Source: Bacilli bacterium
GTDB taxonomy: Bacteria > Bacillota_I > Bacilli_A > RFN20 > CAG-826
DNA length: 42,061 bases
Assembly (NCBI GenBank): GCA_017470115.1
Contig: JAFUEZ010000006.1
Coordinates: 1 to 42,061 of the forward strand
Reading direction: 5' to 3'
This document shows positions 14,619 through 42,061 of the stretch, one piece after another. Positions within the stretch are counted from its first letter, which is position 1; every line of letters starts with the position of its first letter. The notes below the pieces were generated by a model. That model saw nothing but the letters and a program-made list of their open reading frames with translations. It was not told the DNA's origin and searched no databases. The translations under genes and the position numbers were made by a program.

Positions 14619-16691
14619 CTATTCAGGAAATTTAGTAATTGTTGCTGTAGTTTGCCCTCCACTGCCAACAGCATTTCCTAACTCATTAATTACATGTTTA
14701 ATTCCGCCATTAGTATTTCCAGAAAAAGTTGTAGTAACTAAATGATACATATTAATATTTTCGTTATTTGGAGCTTCCATTGCACTATCTAAATAATCAA
14801 CCATTCTGTGAACCCAATAAACACCTATACCAAGTGCATCGTGTTTCAATACACCATCATCAACTTTATATGATGCGTAGCCATTTTTTTCGCCATCATG
14901 TGACATCCAAGAATCTTGTCCAAATGTTGTGTATGGCACTTCAGATTGATACATAATTGTTTTGCCTCTTTCGCCATTCCATATTGTCTGATATTCTTCA
15001 AAATGTTCGACCATTAAGGCATAAATAGTTACATCATCACCATTAACAATTAGACCGTTTTTACAAGGGTTACCATAAGTAATTGAACCGTCTTCATTCT
15101 CGTAATCATTCCAAGCAACACCTCTAGAATGATCCGCTCTCCAAAGCCAAAAATTATCTCCAATTGTATTATTTGCGTTAATTACTAATGCAGACTCTGA
15201 TTCGGTATGAATATTCGCATATCCACCAATTCGCAAATATAAATCGGATAAAACTATTGGATTATCCTTGTGCGAAACATTAGACTTTTCTTTCCCGACT
15301 ACAACCATATGTTTTGAGGATTTACCAGCATCAATCAGCAAATTACCTACACGAACTCCATCAACATCATCAATTAATAAAGCGCCTCTTTTATTAGTAT
15401 CGCTTATTCTTAAAGTTGAATATCCGATACCAAGAATTATTGTATCTTCTTGCTTAACTTCTAAAGGTTCATCTAACGTATAAATTCCAGGAGTAAAAAA
15501 TAAATGTTTTCCCTCATTTAAAGCGCTATTTAGTGTCGATGAATTATCAATATCAGCATTTGCTATATAAAAATCATCTAGTGAAATGTATTCTCCGCTT
15601 TCATTATTGATATTTTCCCAACTAATGCCATAAGTATTTTCTCTTACACTAGGCACAAATACGACGTAACCTTCATCATCTAAATATGTTAAAAATGGTT
15701 TTTCGGCAATAACTGGACTTTTATCTACTACTGTATAACGAGCACCATCTCTCCACGAATCAGTAAGAGGACTCTTCATTTCACACCCAGAAAAAACATA
15801 GTTGAAGGAACTGCCCACCCATGAATCAAATTTATCATTACGAGACATCCATTGTTGTTGAGTTCTCGCTTCAATTCTTCCATTTACTTTTGTATTTGCT
15901 AAAAAGCCACCACTTGACCATCCACTAGGGTGAGATAAAGCTAAAGAACCATTGATGTTGCATCTTCTCATTGACGTTGCTTGCGAAACTGCAAACTGAG
16001 TACTTTGATTTATAGAAAGATTTTCTACATTTCTCCAAAATGTGCAAGTTGCGTTATTATTGCTAAGTACATTTGTTGAAACATATAATCCTTTAATTGT
16101 TGTGTTAATAGGTGACTCGCCTAATCCAATTGCTGTTGTGTAATATCCTAATCTCATAGTAACATCACTATAATTACCAGGCATAAACATTACTGCGAAT
16201 CTATCAGATGAAAATTGACCTACAGATCCACTTTCAAGTCGATCGTGCTTTTCATCAATAACATTTTGGATTAATGAAAAATCATCATCTTCAGAGCAAA
16301 TCAAAGTATTTTTGCCAAAGACAGAAACAGCTTCTGAAAATTCCTCTTCTTCTCCATCGATAATTCCTTTTACAAGATAATAATCATAATCTTTAGAGTT
16401 CACCTTATATATAAAATCATGGATTCGTTTGGAATTTGCTTTTTGGTAATATCCAAATTTGGTTGGAGATTTATAAATATTATATCCATCATATTTTTTA
16501 TCTGAGTTCCACCTAATATAAGTGTCATTTTTATAAAAAGAAACTCTAGTTTCATTATTATTCAAAACTTCATTGGCAAAATAATCATCTCCTTTTTGAT
16601 TATCATTTCCTTTATTATCGTTAGCGCATGATGAAAAAGAAAGTAGCGAAGCCAAAGCAATAAATATCAAGAGTTTTGCCCTTTTTATCAT
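14619..16691 (-). CDS. Secreted beta-helix lipoprotein, GH55/pectate-lyase-like fold
   Basis: This 690-aa exported protein has a type II signal peptide (IKRAKLLIFIALASLLSFSSC, lipid Cys22). Its body looks like paired right-handed beta-helices. Landmarks are FWRNVENLSINQ, GWSSGGFLANTKVNGRI, QQQWMSRNDKFDSWVGSSFN, FTPGIYTLDEPL, GVRVGNLLIDAG, NFWLWRADHSRG, VNGDDVTIYALMVEHFEEYQ and WNGERGKT. From memory these blocks closely resemble large secreted actinomycete proteins related to GH55 beta-1,3-glucanases; the substrate is uncertain. The start at 16691 is chosen because GGAGGG ends 7 nt before it. The ATG at 16706 overlaps that site. A signal-less tail is retained on the cell surface by the lipid. 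Confidence 0.72.
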   Translation of the reverse strand: MIKRAKLLIFIALASLLSFSSCANDNKGNDNQKGDDYFANEVLNNNETRVSFYKNDTYIRWNSDKKYDGYNIYKSPTKFGYYQKANSKRIHDFIYKVNSKDYDYYLVKGIIDGEEEEFSEAVSVFGKNTLICSEDDDFSLIQNVIDEKHDRLESGSVGQFSSDRFAVMFMPGNYSDVTMRLGYYTTAIGLGESPINTTIKGLYVSTNVLSNNNATCTFWRNVENLSINQSTQFAVSQATSMRRCNINGSLALSHPSGWSSGGFLANTKVNGRIEARTQQQWMSRNDKFDSWVGSSFNYVFSGCEMKSPLTDSWRDGARYTVVDKSPVIAEKPFLTYLDDEGYVVFVPSVRENTYGISWENINNESGEYISLDDFYIANADIDNSSTLNSALNEGKHLFFTPGIYTLDEPLEVKQEDTIILGIGYSTLRISDTNKRGALLIDDVDGVRVGNLLIDAGKSSKHMVVVGKEKSNVSHKDNPIVLSDLYLRIGGYANIHTESESALVINANNTIGDNFWLWRADHSRGVAWNDYENEDGSITYGNPCKNGLIVNGDDVTIYALMVEHFEEYQTIWNGERGKTIMYQSEVPYTTFGQDSWMSHDGEKNGYASYKVDDGVLKHDALGIGVYWVHRMVDYLDSAMEAPNNENINMYHLVTTTFSGNTNGGIKHVINELGNAVGSGGQTTATITKFPE

Positions 16692-16708
16692 AAATGAACC
16701 CTCCATTG

Positions 16709-33966: not shown

Positions 33967-35073
33967 TTAAATTTTAACTCCTCTTGGGAAATATAGTGGC
34001 TCTTCTTCTGTGCCTTGAACTTCTTTTCTATTTTGGAAGAGAACACGTTTATCTGAAACAACATTCTTTAAATGAACTCCACGTTTAACAATTGTGTGAG
34101 TGAAAATGATACAATTTTCAACACTTGCACCTTCTTCAATTACAACGTCTCTTGAAATAATAGAATTTTTGACTTTTCCATTAATTGTTGAGCCGTTAGC
34201 AATCAAAGAATTAGTAACTTTTGCTGACTTGCCATATAAAACAGGTCTTGAGTTATGAGTTGTTGTATAAATTGTGCTTCCTGAAAAAACAAGTTCGTTT
34301 AAAAGATTATGATCATTTAAGATTTCCATACTATATTTGTAATAATCTTCAAATGATTCGAATCTCCTCATGAAGCCATCAAATCTAATTGCGTGAACTT
34401 GGCAAGCAAATTTAATTGCGTAATCAAATAAATCGGTAATTGTATTTAATTTTGAAAGATTAGAAACTGTTTCAAGTAATTCTTTTAACAATTCACGTTC
34501 AACAATGATAATACCTGTACCGATATCACATGGTTTATTTTCATCTGAAAGATAAGTTTTTTGAACATCTCCAAGTGAATTTATTACAAACTTTTTAGTT
34601 GTTTTAAAATCAGAACCATCACTAATATGGGTATAAACAGCAGACATTCTACGTCCACTCTTGATGTGCTCATCAATAAACTGATTGTAATCAGCTTTGA
34701 AAATATATGAAGGATCACAAATCATAATGTATTGATATTTTTCTTCAAATAAGAATGGGTCATTGCTTCTAATACATTGAATATCTGTGTTAAAAACATG
34801 ATTGTTACCAGTTTTTAAGAAGTAACTTAAAGAACCAGTACGTGGATTTGCTAAATAAGTATTTTGGTTTTTAACATGCTTTGAAATGCTATTTAATCTA
34901 TTTTTAACTAAAATAGCGATATTATCGATTCCACTATTTGTTAAGTTAGAAAGTGTAATATCAATAAATGCGTAGCGGGCTAAAAATGTAGTTGAAGCAA
35001 GTGGTCTATCATCAGTTAATTCGCCTAAACCTGGTGCTTCAAAACAATTTACTAATGCATATGTTTTATTCAT
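33967..35073 (-). CDS. glgD: GlgD, regulatory subunit of glucose-1-phosphate adenylyltransferase
   Basis: This 368-aa homologue of GlgC is typical of Firmicutes. It keeps the fold and the C-terminal left-handed beta-helix repeats (VTNSLIANGSTINGKVKNSII) but lacks the N-terminal GGxGxRL nucleotide-binding loop, having GELTDDRPLASTTFLARYA instead. It is probably not catalytic alone. In known systems GlgC/GlgD heteromers are more active than GlgC. The start touches the glgC stop. Confidence 0.94.
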   Translation of the reverse strand: MNKTYALVNCFEAPGLGELTDDRPLASTTFLARYAFIDITLSNLTNSGIDNIAILVKNRLNSISKHVKNQNTYLANPRTGSLSYFLKTGNNHVFNTDIQCIRSNDPFLFEEKYQYIMICDPSYIFKADYNQFIDEHIKSGRRMSAVYTHISDGSDFKTTKKFVINSLGDVQKTYLSDENKPCDIGTGIIIVERELLKELLETVSNLSKLNTITDLFDYAIKFACQVHAIRFDGFMRRFESFEDYYKYSMEILNDHNLLNELVFSGSTIYTTTHNSRPVLYGKSAKVTNSLIANGSTINGKVKNSIISRDVVIEEGASVENCIIFTHTIVKRGVHLKNVVSDKRVLFQNRKEVQGTEEEPLYFPRGVKI

Positions 35074-36206
35074 TATTGAAGACTCCTTTCATAATCGATT
35101 AAAACGACTTTATCACCATCTTTATTTATAACTTCATTATCTTTAATCTGTGTTTTTGGACCAATAATTGCGTTATTAACAATGGCATTTTTACCAATTC
35201 TAACTCCTGGCATGACAACAGATTTTGTAACTTGAGCTCCTTCTTCAATTATTACTTCATTTGAAATAACTGAATTTGAAACTTTACCAAAAATTTGAGC
35301 TCCTTGGTTGATTAAACAATCTGATACAACTGCTTTTTTACCCATAAATGTTGGGGTTGAGTGTGTATCTTCAGTATAAATTATTGGCTCTATATCAAAA
35401 TTGATTGTTTCGCTAGATCTTTGTGAAGGCAAAAGTTCCATATTTGCTTGATGCAAAGAATCAAGTGTACCAACATCTCTCCAATAACCCTTAAATTTAT
35501 ATGCGTATAACTTTTTACCAGAATTAAGTAAATAAGGAATAATATCTTTACCAAAATCGTGCTCAGTACCTTCGATTTTTCTATCTTTAATTAAAGCGCT
35601 TCTTAATTCTTTATATGTGAAAATATAAACGCCCATTGAAGCTAAATTGCTCTTAGGAACTTTTGGTTTTTCGACAAACTTTTGGATTCTTAAGTTTTCA
35701 TCACACTCTAAAATTCCAAATCTTGATGCTTCTTTCCAATCAACTTCAATAACTGAAATTGTACAAGCAGCACCAGTTGCAATATGTTGCTCTAACATTT
35801 GATCATATGTTGTCTTATAAATGTGATCGCCACTTAAAATAAGAACATAATCTGGTTCCTCTTCATCTAAGAAGTCTAAATTTTGATAAATTGCATCTGC
35901 AGTACCATCATACCAAGATAAACCTTCTTCAGTTTGACGTGGAGCAAGTGTGAGACATTTTCCGTTAACTCCATCAAATCCCCAAACTGAGCCATTACCA
36001 ATATATTTGTTCAAAGCAACAGATTCATATTGAGTTAAAACTCCACAACTCTGAATGTCACTGTTAGCAACATTTGAGAGCGAGAAGTCAATGATACGAT
36101 ATTTTCCTCCGAAATATACCGCTGGCTTAGCAATTTTTTTGGTCAAGGCTTGTAATCTTGTACCTTTACCGCCCGCAAGAATCATTGCAACGACTTTCCT
36201 TACCAT
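35073..36206 (-). CDS. glgC: Glucose-1-phosphate adenylyltransferase
   Basis: GlgC makes ADP-glucose from glucose-1-phosphate and ATP, the committed step of bacterial glycogen synthesis. The 377-aa protein has AMILAGGKGTRLQALTKKIAKPAVYFGGKYRIIDF (nucleotide and effector site), GLSWYDGTADAIYQN, LSGDHIY, FVEKPKVP and a C-terminal beta-helix. AGGAGG lies 8 nt before the ATG. It starts 49 bp after the jetC stop with no terminator between, though a TATAAT -10 is present in the gap. Confidence 0.97.
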   Translation of the reverse strand: MVRKVVAMILAGGKGTRLQALTKKIAKPAVYFGGKYRIIDFSLSNVANSDIQSCGVLTQYESVALNKYIGNGSVWGFDGVNGKCLTLAPRQTEEGLSWYDGTADAIYQNLDFLDEEEPDYVLILSGDHIYKTTYDQMLEQHIATGAACTISVIEVDWKEASRFGILECDENLRIQKFVEKPKVPKSNLASMGVYIFTYKELRSALIKDRKIEGTEHDFGKDIIPYLLNSGKKLYAYKFKGYWRDVGTLDSLHQANMELLPSQRSSETINFDIEPIIYTEDTHSTPTFMGKKAVVSDCLINQGAQIFGKVSNSVISNEVIIEEGAQVTKSVVMPGVRIGKNAIVNNAIIGPKTQIKDNEVINKDGDKVVLIDYERSLQ

Positions 36207-36242
36207 CTTTAAACCTCCTAAATTATGTTTATGTAAGTATTA

Positions 36243-36271
36243 ATTATATTTTTAGTTATTCTTTTTCAAAA
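36243..36271 (-). promoter_or_regulatory. Promoter of glgCDA
   Basis: On the minus strand TTTTGA (36266-36271) and TATAAT (36243-36248) are 17 bp apart. The -35 lies inside the end of jetC, so the glycogen operon could also receive read-through from the jet operon. Confidence 0.4.
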
Positions 36272-39200
36272 AGTCTAACTGTACTTCTATTTTTATCTCT
36301 TAAAACAATGAGTGTTTCATCAACAAGTGGTGAAATATCTGGAATCTTATCATATGGAGCAGATAAGATGACTTGAAGTTTGAAATCGTTTAAGAGTTTT
36401 ACTGCTTGAGTCATTCTAGTTTTATCCATCTTTGAGAATGCTTCATCAAAGATGATAAGTCTAGTTGTATTGCCCATTTCGCCTTCATCATTTGTGTGAT
36501 AAAGTTGAGCAAATGAAGCTAAAACTGCAATGTAGAATGGTGTTTGAGTTTCACCACCAGATTTTTTCTTAATCATCTTTGAAAGACGTTGTTCATCGCC
36601 GGTTTCCTTATTATAAACGATGAGGTCAAATTCAAGATATGAACGATAATCTGTGAATTTTGCAACGTTTTCAAGAAGTAAGGCATTCTTTTCACCTTCT
36701 CCGACATCAACAATTTGTCTAAAGAGTTCTTCCATAACATCTTTGTATTTTTCAACAAATGCACTATCATCTTTTCCTGTTTCTAAGATGAGATCATCTT
36801 TTAACATATCGTAATATCTCTTATAAACAGTTGATGGTTTGACTGTAAATCTATATAAATCCTTACCGAATGCAGATTGACGAAGAGCAACATTTAAATT
36901 ATCAATTTGATCTTCAACATCTTCAATTGCTCCACGTAATTTGAAGATGAAATCATCTTTAAATTGCTTAGTTGCTTTGTTATAAGAATCTTGGATTTTT
37001 TCTCTATATTCAGGGAGTTTAACATCTCTAAATTCTACAAGTTCATCATCGAAAGCCTTATTATCATCTGCTTCTGCATCATAACTAAGGTGATAATCTT
37101 GTAAATAATCCCTTCTTAATTTAATAACTTGGTTTCTGATGTTATTAACAAGATAAGTCAAACGAGCATATTCAACGTTTGTATCTTGATAAATTTCAAA
37201 GACTGTTTTTCCTTCAGCAAGTTTTGCTTGATATGCAGGAAGAGCAATTTCATCAACTAAAAATGGATCATAACTTGAATTAATTGAATCTTCTTTTTCT
37301 TTTATAGCTTGTTGTTCAGCAATAATCTTTTCTGATTTAATTGTCTCGATATCAGCAGTTAAATTACCTTTTTCAAGAACAATTCTATCTCTAGATTCGT
37401 GAATATCCTTAATATCTTGCTCGATATCTCTGATTCTGTTGTCGATTGATTCGCTTAATGGTGTATCAGAACCTTGAAGTTCTTTATTTATGTAAGCTAA
37501 ATTTGCTTCATAACCAGCTAAATCAGCAACGTGAGCTAAAAGAACAAAATAGTTATCAATTTCTGATTTTGTGAAAACTTCAAGTGAGTTAGCTTCATCG
37601 ATTACAGCCTTAATTTTTCTAAAATAATTCAAATTTTCGCTATATTCACTGATTTGTTTGCTCTTTTCTTTAAGGAATCTTTCATTAATTCCTCTTCCAA
37701 TAAATGATTCGTGATATAAACGAGGATTGATTTTAGCAAGAGAATAATTACGATAGAGATCGCATTCTTTTGTGATTCCATTTCCTGATTCACGAGCTTC
37801 TTCAATATTTTTAGATTTATGTAATCTACCAATCAAGAAGTTTGTATAAGCTTTTGCTCCTTCATGATCTGTGATAATTTCTTCAGCAAGTGAGCCAGAT
37901 TCAGCAACAAATCCTCTTTCGATAATTTTTTCTTCATCAACAAGAGCTGTTCCATAGAATTTATATTCATCAAGTAATCTTCTTAAAATTTTATAGGTTG
38001 AAGCATAATATTTTGGAGCAACAAATAAGTTGAATTTTTGTCCTGAAAGGAAACCTTCAATCGCATTTGACCAACTCAAATCATCGATATCAACAAGATC
38101 TGCATAAATTGCGACTTCGATTTTGTGGCCAAATTGAATTTGAAGTTCTTGCTCAAGACGTGCTTTAACCATAACAAGTCTAGAGTCGTAAGCTTTTGAG
38201 CCGCTCTTCATCTCGTTTTCTTGCTCGCGAATACCCCTAATGCTCTTTTCAAGATTTTGAATTGTTCTAGCAAGGGAAACAGCAAGTGAAGAAATTTTAT
38301 TTTTATAAAGCATCAATGCATCTCTAAAATCATTTAAAGCACCTTTATCAAGTTCAATGATATTTGAAAGATAATTTTGCTTAAATGAAGCAGTAACTTG
38401 TTTTATATCTTTAGAAGCTTCTTTAATCTCTTCAATCTCTTCTGCTCTATCTTCACCTAAAATATCAATATTTAATTTTTCTAAATTTTGAATTAATGCA
38501 TCACCACAATTTGCAAAATTATTTGCATATCCATAAAGTGATGTTTTAACTGTTGAAATATTGTTTTGAATAGCTGAAATTTTATCTTTAACATCTTTTC
38601 TTTGACGTTTTAAATCTTCAGAAATTCTGACTGTATCATTGGATGCTTTGTCCATAATAAGTCTATTTTTTCTATCTTCGAGTTCAGATAAATTGTTTTG
38701 GAATTCTAAAAGTTCTTCATCAATTTCAGCAATTCTTTTTTTGTTACTTTCGATTTGCTTATTAAATTTTCTTAATTTATCGTAACTTTGCTCTAATTGG
38801 CATCTTTCTAAAATGTATTGAGCAATTGTTAAATTCTCTTTGTGTTTTTTATAAGTTGCATAAATATCATTGACTTCTTCAAGACGTTTTACACGTTTTT
38901 CAATATTTAAAGCTTCATTTTCGAGTCTCTTATATTGAAGAATATTATCTTGAAGAGCATCAAGTTCAATATTTGCTTGAGGATCACAAACATATTCTGT
39001 AATAAATGTAGCAATATCAGTAATTGGCGAGAATGAAGTTGCCTTCTTTAAAAGACTGAAATATTTATCTTTTAATCCACCAAATTTCTTCTTCATAAAA
39101 TCTTGATATTGACGATTACTATCGAAGAATTGGAATTGCAATGGATAATTTTCTTCACAATATTTTCCTAAAGTTTTAATATCCATTGGAACATTATTTA

Positions 39201-39621
39201 CTACAAATTCATTTTCAGGAATCTTATTATCGAGGAAGAAAAATTTATGTTCAATTGTTCCTTCGCTAAAGACGTCAAAAACAACACCCATTGTAAAATA
39301 TGAATTGTGTAAAGTATCAAAATATTCAAGAGCGACATAACTTGTAAATCTGCCATTTCTTAAATATTTAAAACCACCATCAACAGTATCACCAAGTTCG
39401 CCTCTTAAATAGCCAACTAGAGTACGTGATGATTTGTCCATAGCTGCTTTATTAAAATATTTTCCAGTTGTATCACCAAGTAAAACAAGTTGAATAGCAT
39501 CAATTAATGTTGATTTACCAGAACCATTAACACCAGTAAGGAAGACGATTGGTCTAATGTCGATTGTTTCGTTCCAAAAATAGTGCCAATTTATAATTTT
39601 AACTTTATTTAATTGCTTCAT
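36256..39621 (-). CDS. jetC: JetC-like SMC/MukB-type ATPase
   Basis: This 1121-aa protein is the motor of a Wadjet/Mks-type condensin. The N-terminus has INWHYFWNETIDIRPIVFLTG and the Walker A GVNGSGKST (30-38). Long coiled coils span about 230-430 and 740-930 around a central hinge-like region. The C-terminus has the ABC signature KKKSGGETQTPF (SGGE at 1021) and Walker B RLIIFDEAFSKMD. All ATPase motifs are intact, so it should be active. It shares one base with the jetB stop. JetC hydrolyses ATP to extrude DNA loops together with JetA and JetB. Here no jetD follows: glgC does. Confidence 0.92.
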   Translation of the reverse strand: MKQLNKVKIINWHYFWNETIDIRPIVFLTGVNGSGKSTLIDAIQLVLLGDTTGKYFNKAAMDKSSRTLVGYLRGELGDTVDGGFKYLRNGRFTSYVALEYFDTLHNSYFTMGVVFDVFSEGTIEHKFFFLDNKIPENEFVVNNVPMDIKTLGKYCEENYPLQFQFFDSNRQYQDFMKKKFGGLKDKYFSLLKKATSFSPITDIATFITEYVCDPQANIELDALQDNILQYKRLENEALNIEKRVKRLEEVNDIYATYKKHKENLTIAQYILERCQLEQSYDKLRKFNKQIESNKKRIAEIDEELLEFQNNLSELEDRKNRLIMDKASNDTVRISEDLKRQRKDVKDKISAIQNNISTVKTSLYGYANNFANCGDALIQNLEKLNIDILGEDRAEEIEEIKEASKDIKQVTASFKQNYLSNIIELDKGALNDFRDALMLYKNKISSLAVSLARTIQNLEKSIRGIREQENEMKSGSKAYDSRLVMVKARLEQELQIQFGHKIEVAIYADLVDIDDLSWSNAIEGFLSGQKFNLFVAPKYYASTYKILRRLLDEYKFYGTALVDEEKIIERGFVAESGSLAEEIITDHEGAKAYTNFLIGRLHKSKNIEEARESGNGITKECDLYRNYSLAKINPRLYHESFIGRGINERFLKEKSKQISEYSENLNYFRKIKAVIDEANSLEVFTKSEIDNYFVLLAHVADLAGYEANLAYINKELQGSDTPLSESIDNRIRDIEQDIKDIHESRDRIVLEKGNLTADIETIKSEKIIAEQQAIKEKEDSINSSYDPFLVDEIALPAYQAKLAEGKTVFEIYQDTNVEYARLTYLVNNIRNQVIKLRRDYLQDYHLSYDAEADDNKAFDDELVEFRDVKLPEYREKIQDSYNKATKQFKDDFIFKLRGAIEDVEDQIDNLNVALRQSAFGKDLYRFTVKPSTVYKRYYDMLKDDLILETGKDDSAFVEKYKDVMEELFRQIVDVGEGEKNALLLENVAKFTDYRSYLEFDLIVYNKETGDEQRLSKMIKKKSGGETQTPFYIAVLASFAQLYHTNDEGEMGNTTRLIIFDEAFSKMDKTRMTQAVKLLNDFKLQVILSAPYDKIPDISPLVDETLIVLRDKNRSTVRLFEKE

Positions 39622-40253
39622 TAAAATGCCTCCTCTCCTTGATTACGTGAGTTGAGTTCATCTAAAGCGTTGCTCATTGCAACAATCTTTTCATTATCAA
39701 GCGCGTAAACAATACTTGGAAGAATATAGAAAGAAACATTTCCTTCATCATAATTTCCACTAACTTTGGAAATAATATTGTGATTTGCTAAAAATCTTAA
39801 TGAGCGAGAAATTGATCTTCCGTTTAATCTTTTTCCTGGCATAGTAATTCCATCATCAATCATCGTCTTAAGTAGACCTGGAGTGGTCAAATAGATGGCT
39901 TGATTAGTGGAATTTGATTCATTTTTATAATTTTCAAAAATTAATCTTAAAGCAAAAAGAATCAAAGATGTTTCTCTATCCATTCTGATTCTATTTTCAC
40001 CATAAAGATTTGTTAATGCGACAACTCCTAAAACTACATCTTTTTCAACGTTCCAACCAGCATATTTGAGATAATCATTAACAATCTCAAAATATCTTTC
40101 TAAAAATCTATAATCAGGATTTATACGAATAACTTTTTCTCTTGTGTCAAAAATATCACGAACAATAAATCCTTTTAAAAGTAATTTGTTGACTACAGTA
40201 GAAAACTCATTTTGATCACTGCTTGGCATCTTTAAATAATCTTCAGTAAACAT
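39621..40253 (-). CDS. jetB: JetB-like (MukE-like, DUF4194) subunit
   Basis: This 210-aa protein is probably two winged-helix domains, the MukE-type KITE subunit of the complex. FSTVVNKLLLKGFIVRDIFDTREKVIRINPDYRFLERYFEIVNDYL and the GENRIRMDRETSLILFALRLIFENY block (about 84-110) are characteristic of DUF4194. It bridges the JetA kleisin to DNA. It lies 6 bp after jetA and overlaps jetC by one base. The call rests on motif plus gene order. Confidence 0.87.
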   Translation of the reverse strand: MFTEDYLKMPSSDQNEFSTVVNKLLLKGFIVRDIFDTREKVIRINPDYRFLERYFEIVNDYLKYAGWNVEKDVVLGVVALTNLYGENRIRMDRETSLILFALRLIFENYKNESNSTNQAIYLTTPGLLKTMIDDGITMPGKRLNGRSISRSLRFLANHNIISKVSGNYDEGNVSFYILPSIVYALDNEKIVAMSNALDELNSRNQGEEAF

Positions 40254-40259
40254 ATTTTT

Positions 40260-41678
40260 CTACTCCTTTCTTATAAATTTGAAATTTGGAACGATGTATC
40301 CATATGAATGGATCTTTGTTTTATCAACTTCTTCTACCCAATAGAAGCAATTTTCATCATCTTTCTTAATAACTGCTAAGATTAAACAGATAAATGCATC
40401 GGTATCAACTATTGGAATTTCTGAAATGTTGATTTCTTGTTTATCTCCAAATGCAAGTTCCATAAATCCATAAACTTTTTCATCTGTGAAGATAAGTCTT
40501 GTTTCTTCAATGAAATCACTCATCAAGAAGTCGGCTGCATCATCAAATGAAACGAGTTCCATTGGCAAGTCATCTTCTCTTATCTTTCTTAAAATTGGAA
40601 GAGTCAATGAGTCACCATTAATATAACCTTGCTCGTAGAAGTAAATACTATCTTGCATCTTGGTCAAAATTTTTCTTAATCTACGAGGATCATTTGTACT
40701 CTTTGCATATTCTTTAAGAATATTTTCTAAGTGACCCTTAATAGTTTTATCGTTGTTATTAAGGTATAAAATCTTGTTAGCACTACTTTTGGTGTAAGCG
40801 TTATTTTCTTTATCGATACTTGAAATGGTTGCGTTAAGTTTTTCATAAGTATCAGTAATGTAATTGATTTTTTCAATAACATCAGCTTCCATTGCCTCAC
40901 GAGTTTCTGTAGGATTCGAAAGAACTGCTTGTTTTGTTATTTTTTCTCTTAAATTTCTATCGTTAATCCACTTATCTAAAATTCTAATGATTGGTCGTTT
41001 AAATTTAGCAACGCTATCAAAAGTTTTGAGTGGATGGTAATATCTATCAACAATTTTGTTTTTATAAATATCAAAATAATCATGTAAAACACGATTAGTA
41101 TCGAATAATTTGGATAATCTATTTTGGAAGATTCTAATAGAATGGTTGATTGTAATAAGTTCAACTTTTAATCTCTTTGTGTTGTCATAGCATCTTGAAA
41201 GTGTGGCATACATCAATTCATCTTGTTCCTCATCTTCAAGTTTAAGTTCACTATAAGTTGCATGAACAAGTGCCATATATGGACTTTCTTCATCACTAAT
41301 TATGTCTTTAAAAGCTTTCAAAATTAAAATTGAATATTGTGGCATGATGATGCTTTCTTCAAAAGTATCAGGATCCATCATGACATCAATCCAACCAGTT
41401 TCTTCTAAACGTTTAACAATGTAACCTGCTTTACCACTTGCAGTTTCAGCTAAAAGCGAATTATCTTGAGTTGCATCAAATTCTTCATCTTCGTATGTGA
41501 AAGATTCAAGTTCTTTTCCTCTTTCTCTTAAAGTCTTAACAAAATCGCTTTTTTTGATAAAAGCTTCATCAGATTCAAGCAAGTTATAGAGAACCATCAA
41601 ACTATCTAGGTAGATTGCTTTGTTCTTCCCACCAAATAATCCAAAGTAATTTTCAGGTATAATATCAAATAAGTTCAT
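40260..41678 (-). CDS. jetA: JetA-like kleisin subunit (DUF5716 type)
   Basis: This 472-aa protein starts MNLFDIIPENYFGLFGGKNKAIYLDSLMVLY, the N-terminus I associate with DUF5716 JetA proteins of Clostridia and relatives. It has an N-terminal winged-helix region, a long helical middle (about 150-330) and a C-terminal winged helix, the layout of MukF/kleisin. It would hold the JetC head pair and bind JetB. It is the first gene of the operon. AAGG lies 4 nt before ATG inside the arm of a perfect inverted repeat. A TGATATAAT extended -10 ends 11 nt before the ATG, so the leader may be only about 5 nt. Confidence 0.87.
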   Translation of the reverse strand: MNLFDIIPENYFGLFGGKNKAIYLDSLMVLYNLLESDEAFIKKSDFVKTLRERGKELESFTYEDEEFDATQDNSLLAETASGKAGYIVKRLEETGWIDVMMDPDTFEESIIMPQYSILILKAFKDIISDEESPYMALVHATYSELKLEDEEQDELMYATLSRCYDNTKRLKVELITINHSIRIFQNRLSKLFDTNRVLHDYFDIYKNKIVDRYYHPLKTFDSVAKFKRPIIRILDKWINDRNLREKITKQAVLSNPTETREAMEADVIEKINYITDTYEKLNATISSIDKENNAYTKSSANKILYLNNNDKTIKGHLENILKEYAKSTNDPRRLRKILTKMQDSIYFYEQGYINGDSLTLPILRKIREDDLPMELVSFDDAADFLMSDFIEETRLIFTDEKVYGFMELAFGDKQEINISEIPIVDTDAFICLILAVIKKDDENCFYWVEEVDKTKIHSYGYIVPNFKFIRKE

Positions 41679-41680
41679 AC

Positions 41681-41708
41681 TACCTTAAAATTATATCATT
41701 TTAAGGTA
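41681..41708. promoter_or_regulatory. Inverted repeat enclosing the jetABC -10
   Basis: Perfect 11-bp arms TACCTTAAAAT (41681-41691) and ATTTTAAGGTA (41698-41708) are separated by 6 bp. On the minus strand the repeat contains the extended -10 TGATATAAT (TATAAT at 41690-41695) and, in the downstream arm, the AAGG ribosome binding site. A protein binding here would shut the promoter. If transcription starts further upstream, the RNA hairpin would hide the ribosome binding site. Confidence 0.6.
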
Positions 41709-41749
41709 ATCGATAAAACAGAAAATATACCAATTTAACAAAAATTTTT

Positions 41750-41779
41750 GCTTTTTATTTGTGTTTTGCATGTATTTTG
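41750..41779 (-). repeat. Intergenic repeat, copy e
   Basis: On the minus strand it reads CAAAATACATGCAAAACAC and then AAATAAAAAGC. It matches copies b and d across TGCAAAACnCAAATA and lies 70 bp upstream of jetA. Confidence 0.5.
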
Positions 41780-42061
41780 AGAGTTTTAATCATTTTGAAT
41801 GGTTTTGTAATTTACTTTTTTTACTATGTTAAAATTTGAAACTAAAATAATCATTTTTAATTTAATTATTCACTAGATTATTTTGCTCATTTTTTATTAT
41901 AAATTCTCAAAACTTCATGGCTGTAACTTAAAAAACTAAATTCCGTTTTTAGAATTAAAATTTTGTCTGAAAGATTAAATTCTATTTAATGGAGTTTTTC
42001 TTTATGTAAATAGGAATTTAGTATTTCAAACTCTTGCAAAGTAATAAAAATAGCGATAAAA
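41780..42061. other. AT-rich non-coding stretch upstream of the jet operon
   Basis: I see no ORF with a ribosome binding site, no tRNA and no clear terminator in this stretch. It contains several runs of A and T. The neighbouring gene on the far side lies outside the window, so a jetD beyond it cannot be excluded. Confidence 0.6.

Follow-up and report, generated by a model that had tools for sequence, protein, structure and literature searches.

A nuclease-less type I Wadjet operon, jetABC, as the probable resident chromosome condensin of an order of Bacilli

The motor of Wadjet systems senses DNA shape and JetD is the executor (PMC10586767). According to one proposal, MukBEF and MksBEF descend from Wadjet through loss of JetD, with a change from immunity to chromosome segregation, a history that is unresolved (PMC10586767). 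MksBEF is sporadic and typically combined with another condensin, SMC-ScpAB or MukBEF (PMC7485682). Here we describe a jetA-jetB-jetC operon without jetD on contig JAFUEZ010000006.1 of a Bacilli bacterium; the window analysed is the whole contig of 42061 bp, from an assembly of 1.41 Mb that is 96% complete. From its distribution, we consider it likely that this operon encodes a nuclease-less type I Wadjet motor that is now the resident chromosome condensin throughout the order, replacing SMC-ScpAB. Genomes (G), loci (L) and families (f) are designated below by our own numbers.

The nearest described systems are type I Wadjet (JetABCD) loci of Clostridia, for example those of Thermoclostridium caenicola (L194) and Lucifera butyrica (L222). 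The operon resembles them in the homology of JetA1, JetB1 and JetC1 and in gene order, and its JetC falls into one supported clade with the Clostridia systems. In contrast to type I Wadjet, the jetABC of this order is without JetD, orthologous, near-universal and located beside glycogen and housekeeping genes. JetD as part of the jetABC locus, the defining feature of Wadjet, is missing here. MksBEF of Pseudomonas aeruginosa is likewise nuclease-free and functions in chromosome organisation, but SMC-ScpAB is retained in that organism, whereas searches for the SMC hinge and ScpA found none here. A parallel to the proposed replacement is enterobacterial MukBEF, an SMC complex that took the place of SMC-ScpAB throughout a lineage (PMC10586767). 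Unlike MukBEF, however, the complex of the window is Wadjet type I by sequence and belongs to another bacterial lineage, making it an independent event. JetABC would work most like MksBEF and MukBEF and is a type I Wadjet by sequence.

A preliminary description of this DNA placed a tight operon with intact ATPase motifs at 36256-41678, and all of its coordinates proved correct. PADLOC and Pfam identified all three type I Wadjet genes in this one operon:

jetA, 40260..41678, minus strand: 472 aa, Wadjet type I kleisin-like subunit (DUF5716/PF18982); PADLOC JetA1 5e-117, Pfam JetA 1.5e-87
jetB, 39621..40253, minus strand: 210 aa, MukE/KITE-like subunit (DUF4194); PADLOC JetB1 1.7e-65, Pfam DUF4194 1.2e-15
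jetC, 36256..39621, minus strand: 1121 aa, SMC/MukB-like ATPase; PADLOC JetC1 E=0, 1091 bits, Pfam SbcC_Walker_B 7.5e-26

A gap of 6 nt separates jetA from jetB, and jetB and jetC overlap by 1 nt. JetC contains Walker A (G30..G35-K36..T38), signature (S1021-G-G-E1024) and Walker B/D-loop (D1059-E1060..K1064-M-D1066) motifs, and the Walker A, signature and Walker B columns were invariant across an alignment of 17 diverse orthologues. The solved structures nearest to this protein are those of JetC (8dk1/8dk2), and a search of the PDB with JetB returned zero matches. Because JetC1 scored 1091 bits and the MukB Pfam model only 24.5 bits over 55 residues, we assign the protein to the JetC family rather than to MukB or MksB. 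The predicted combination of an SMC ATPase with kleisin and KITE subunits, intact ATPase motifs and no nuclease matches a nuclease-free condensin of the Muk/Mks type. In a comparison with the closest relative, the ratio of nonsynonymous to synonymous substitution rates (dN/dS) was 0.048 for jetA, 0.054 for jetB and 0.098 for jetC, similar to the values for the adjacent glgC, glgD and glgA genes (0.057-0.096). These data indicate that strong purifying selection acts on jetABC (dN/dS 0.05-0.10).

The absence of jetD was examined within the window, in the remainder of the genome and in relatives. The preliminary description had reported that jetD was missing locally and that glgC lay 49 bp past jetC, which was borne out. 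The features flanking the operon are:

glgC, 35073..36206, minus strand: first gene of a glgC-glgD-glgA run; a neighbour outside the JetABC complex
jetC-glgC gap, 36207..36255, minus strand: 49 bp intergenic
upstream stretch, 41679..42061, no strand: 383 nt non-coding, from the 5′ end of jetA to the contig end; ORF (open reading frame)-free

Neither a jetD remnant nor a terminator-like site was seen in the 49-bp gap. A profile search of the whole genome for JetD_C (PF09983) found no match beside jetC or elsewhere; the same model detected JetD of the closest Clostridia systems at E values of 6e-19 to 5e-27. JetD being absent, cleavage by JetD is impossible. As the contig ends 383 bp upstream of jetA, one might suppose that jetD lies past this end, or that it is missing from this assembly only. 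We regard the chance of such an artefact as negligible, since the usual site of jetD is 3′ of jetC, where glgC is found here, and dozens of relatives on long contigs give the same picture. The upstream stretch is indeed free of ORFs, as had been described, and simply runs up to the contig end. A jetD beyond position 42061 also finds no counterpart in the closest relative (L143, JetC 91% identical), where the region upstream of jetA contains three housekeeping-type ORFs (226, 219 and 309 aa) but lacks jetD. Similarly, the jetC-glgC junctions of genus relatives (L052-L062) contained neither jetD nor a jetD remnant. Extending the comparison to the order, we found jetD after jetABC in none of approximately 40 orphan loci, which came from seven families (f1-f6, f8) and had glgCDA or other non-jet genes instead. 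From these data we conclude that jetD was already missing in the ancestor of the lineage and that a contig artefact is not the cause.

JetD_C was present in 17 of 144 relatives (16 above the cut-off), that is, sporadically in about one genome in ten; most of the genomes compared are metagenome-assembled. All 11 JetD loci for which the neighbourhood was fetched belonged to complete second copies of jetABCD that were separate from the orphan operon. In four genus members (L042, L043, L044, L046) the JetD of the second copy has an internal TAA and may be decaying or frameshifted. The N-terminal IFDR motif of JetB, a reported contact with JetD, was unrecognisable in the aligned JetB N-termini, and this was so with or without JetD.

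The orphan operon itself is conserved. A JetC orthologue was found in 24 of the 25 other genomes of the genus, the single miss being a genome with 52% completeness. Among the order-level genomes (G086-G140) only two gave no such orthologue, and there is normally one copy per genome. Nuclease-free jetABC occurs in almost every family of the order, which answers the question of its conservation in relatives raised by the preliminary description, and JetC identity declines with rank, from 52-91% in the genus to about 50-55% in the family and 33-43% in the order. The glgC-glgD-glgA genes are commonly downstream of jetC in families f1, f3 and f5, and upstream genes in other genus members include ribulose-phosphate 3-epimerase (rpe), a Ser/Thr kinase, a PP2C phosphatase and RlmN. 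We conclude that jetABC has been inherited mainly vertically, in conserved neighbourhoods. GC content is 0.302 in the operon versus 0.306 in the remaining window, in agreement with the base composition described earlier. On the basis of orthology, gene neighbourhood and GC content we reject recent acquisition or membership of a defence island. In genus g25 of family f1 (L274-L278; G049, G071, G355, G362, G325) we observed a second kind of nuclease-free jetABC. These copies cluster with the jetABCD second copies, not with the order's orphan copy, and a different Wadjet may have replaced the latter.

We then asked which other condensins accompany jetABC. The search for smc-scpA-scpB that had been proposed was carried out for two of its parts: neither the SMC hinge (PF06470) nor ScpA (PF02616) was found in the genome of the window or in the order, apart from one sub-threshold ScpA match and weak hinge matches inside JetC, while ScpB was not searched for. 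The remaining hinge matches were in the outgroups, and ScpA was found in both same-class outgroups that carry SMC. In most genomes of the order no SMC complex other than JetABC was found. Among 296 genomes of the class, JetA was detected in 81, ScpA in 135 and both in only 10, which belong to families f14 and f20; seven of these 10 had a JetD match above the cut-off. JetD was found in only 4 of the 71 genomes with JetA and without ScpA (G025, G281, G383, G263). In the first three it lies outside the orphan operon, on a separate contig, and in G281 it is part of a second jetABCD copy.

These distributions bear on the possibility that anti-plasmid defence persists, with JetABC using a distant or non-homologous nuclease or silencing plasmids by compaction without cutting. 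PADLOC classes the components as Wadjet type I, and compaction without cutting has been proposed for other SMC complexes (PMC10586767). However, JetD is absent from the genome and from most of the order and, in those relatives that have it, was located in separate jetABCD copies wherever examined; a distant or non-homologous nuclease, which the preliminary description had considered, received no support. Moreover, the second jetABCD copies are sporadic, whereas the orphan operon is near-universal, orthologous, flanked by housekeeping genes, under purifying selection and, in most of these genomes, the sole SMC complex detected. We therefore consider persistent defence quite improbable. The comparison instead favours the resident, domesticated chromosomal condensin that the preliminary description had put forward, on the grounds of vertical inheritance, conserved neighbourhood and the lack of SMC and ScpA matches in the order.

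The history of this change was followed on two quick single-gene trees, one of rpoB (75 genomes) and one of JetC (87 sequences). On the rpoB tree the distribution of SMC needs only two changes in the class. One loss corresponds to the order of the window (support 99) and the other to a clade of families f10, f12, f16, f19, f21, f23, f26, f27 and f28 (support 100), which may include Acholeplasma laidlawii PG-8A (putatively G226). Nuclease-free jetABC is present in each of the two SMC-less clades. On the JetC tree the copies of the order and the Clostridia jetABCD systems formed one clade (support 100), and a single origin of the JetC copies within the order was not rejected (approximately unbiased (AU) test, p 0.60). 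By contrast, the test rejected a common origin of nuclease-free JetC in the two SMC-less clades (AU p = 0.0008), indicating that each clade lost JetD and kept jetABC independently of the other. We lean towards the view that Wadjet became the sole condensin at least twice in one class, once from a Clostridia-like Wadjet in this uncultured order and once in the clade with the putative A. laidlawii, that SMC-ScpAB was lost each time, that ParB of the order often degenerated or vanished, and that some descendants later became condensin-free.

In the mechanism that we propose, the ancestor of the order would have held a Wadjet akin to the jetABCD of Clostridia and then lost jetD and smc-scpAB, in either order. 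The complex would be built from dimers of JetC, the kleisin JetA and the KITE-like JetB; it would bind chromosomal DNA and, by analogy to Wadjet and MukBEF, extrude loops with ATP, such that sister chromosomes would be compacted and separated without cutting. With JetD missing, JetABC could only compact. The total-extrusion model implies that JetABC is able to act on chromosomes (PMC10586767). We infer complex formation, loop extrusion and, from the distribution of the genes, a role in chromosome segregation.

Several observations weigh against the view that jetABC replaced SMC-ScpAB as condensin. Family f14 (L273, L286, L288, L289, L291) holds nuclease-free jetABC alongside SMC-ScpAB, so that loss of JetD alone does not imply replacement of SMC; four of these five JetC sequences form one clade in the JetC tree (support 100). 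In G263 (f21, locus L270), which is SMC-less, the sole copy is an intact jetABCD with JetD. Eight near-complete genomes from f1 genera (G042, G043, G047, G051, G055, G057, G293, G300), which belong to the same family as the window, lacked SMC, ScpA and JetA/JetC, and two of them (G042 and G043) are estimated to be 100% complete. An AAA_23 search of the apparently condensin-less f1 genomes returned ORFs of RecF, RecN, UvrA or transporter size, with no SMC-like ORF among the matches. Thus, if the assemblies are right, these genera live without a known condensin, and none is strictly required there. Finally, SMC was lost independently only twice, too few events for the association to become significant by independent contrasts. 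The f1 and f14 genomes lend themselves to another explanation, in which JetABC is an accessory SMC complex for repair, replication restart or partial redundancy, as with P. aeruginosa MksBEF, in a lineage that needs no dedicated condensin: family members that lost jetABC as well still live, and f14 retains both complexes. Nevertheless, strong purifying selection acts on jetABC, which has been kept throughout the order and in each of the SMC-less clades, and we regard an accessory role as unlikely. As separate observations, the jetABCD of G263 is the only SMC-like system found there and may represent an intermediate state, and the SMC hinge and JetA were also absent from G144, G151 and G166 (f12, f19 and f23), where other SMC-like proteins were not searched for.

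ParB supports a changed loading system in part. ParB_N scores exceeded 100 bits in most SMC-bearing families, and most of f1 and f3 gave 42-73 bits or nothing; ParB_N was not detected in the genome of the window. The ParB-like proteins of f1, f3 and f6 (L374-L381, L390-L392) are altered in the GERRxRA and ENxQRE motifs, which we take to be the CTP-binding motifs of ParB. Canonical ParB is kept in basal SMC-less families, namely f2, one of two genomes each of f4 and f8, f10, most of f16, and f28. The decay of ParB therefore probably came after, not alongside, the loss of SMC.

A literature search on Wadjet in Mollicutes and on condensin or SMC in Acholeplasma, which did not cover subscription papers, found no report of such a replacement. 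As far as this literature shows, JetABC as the sole SMC complex across an order of small-genome Bacilli is new, as is the second independent case. On the trees of one class, close relatives that bear the nuclease, descendants without it and the disappearance of SMC-ScpAB are visible twice, and one of the two clades has a putative cultured laboratory member (A. laidlawii), so that the Wadjet-to-condensin idea becomes testable. The comparison also brought to light relatives that appear to be condensin-free, and it implies that defence finders scoring jetABC may miscount a probable housekeeping condensin as defence in these genomes.

Two minor features of the window were recorded. A 695-aa ORF on the minus strand (14619-16706) is without a Pfam match at 1e-5, and glgC has its own AGGAGG.
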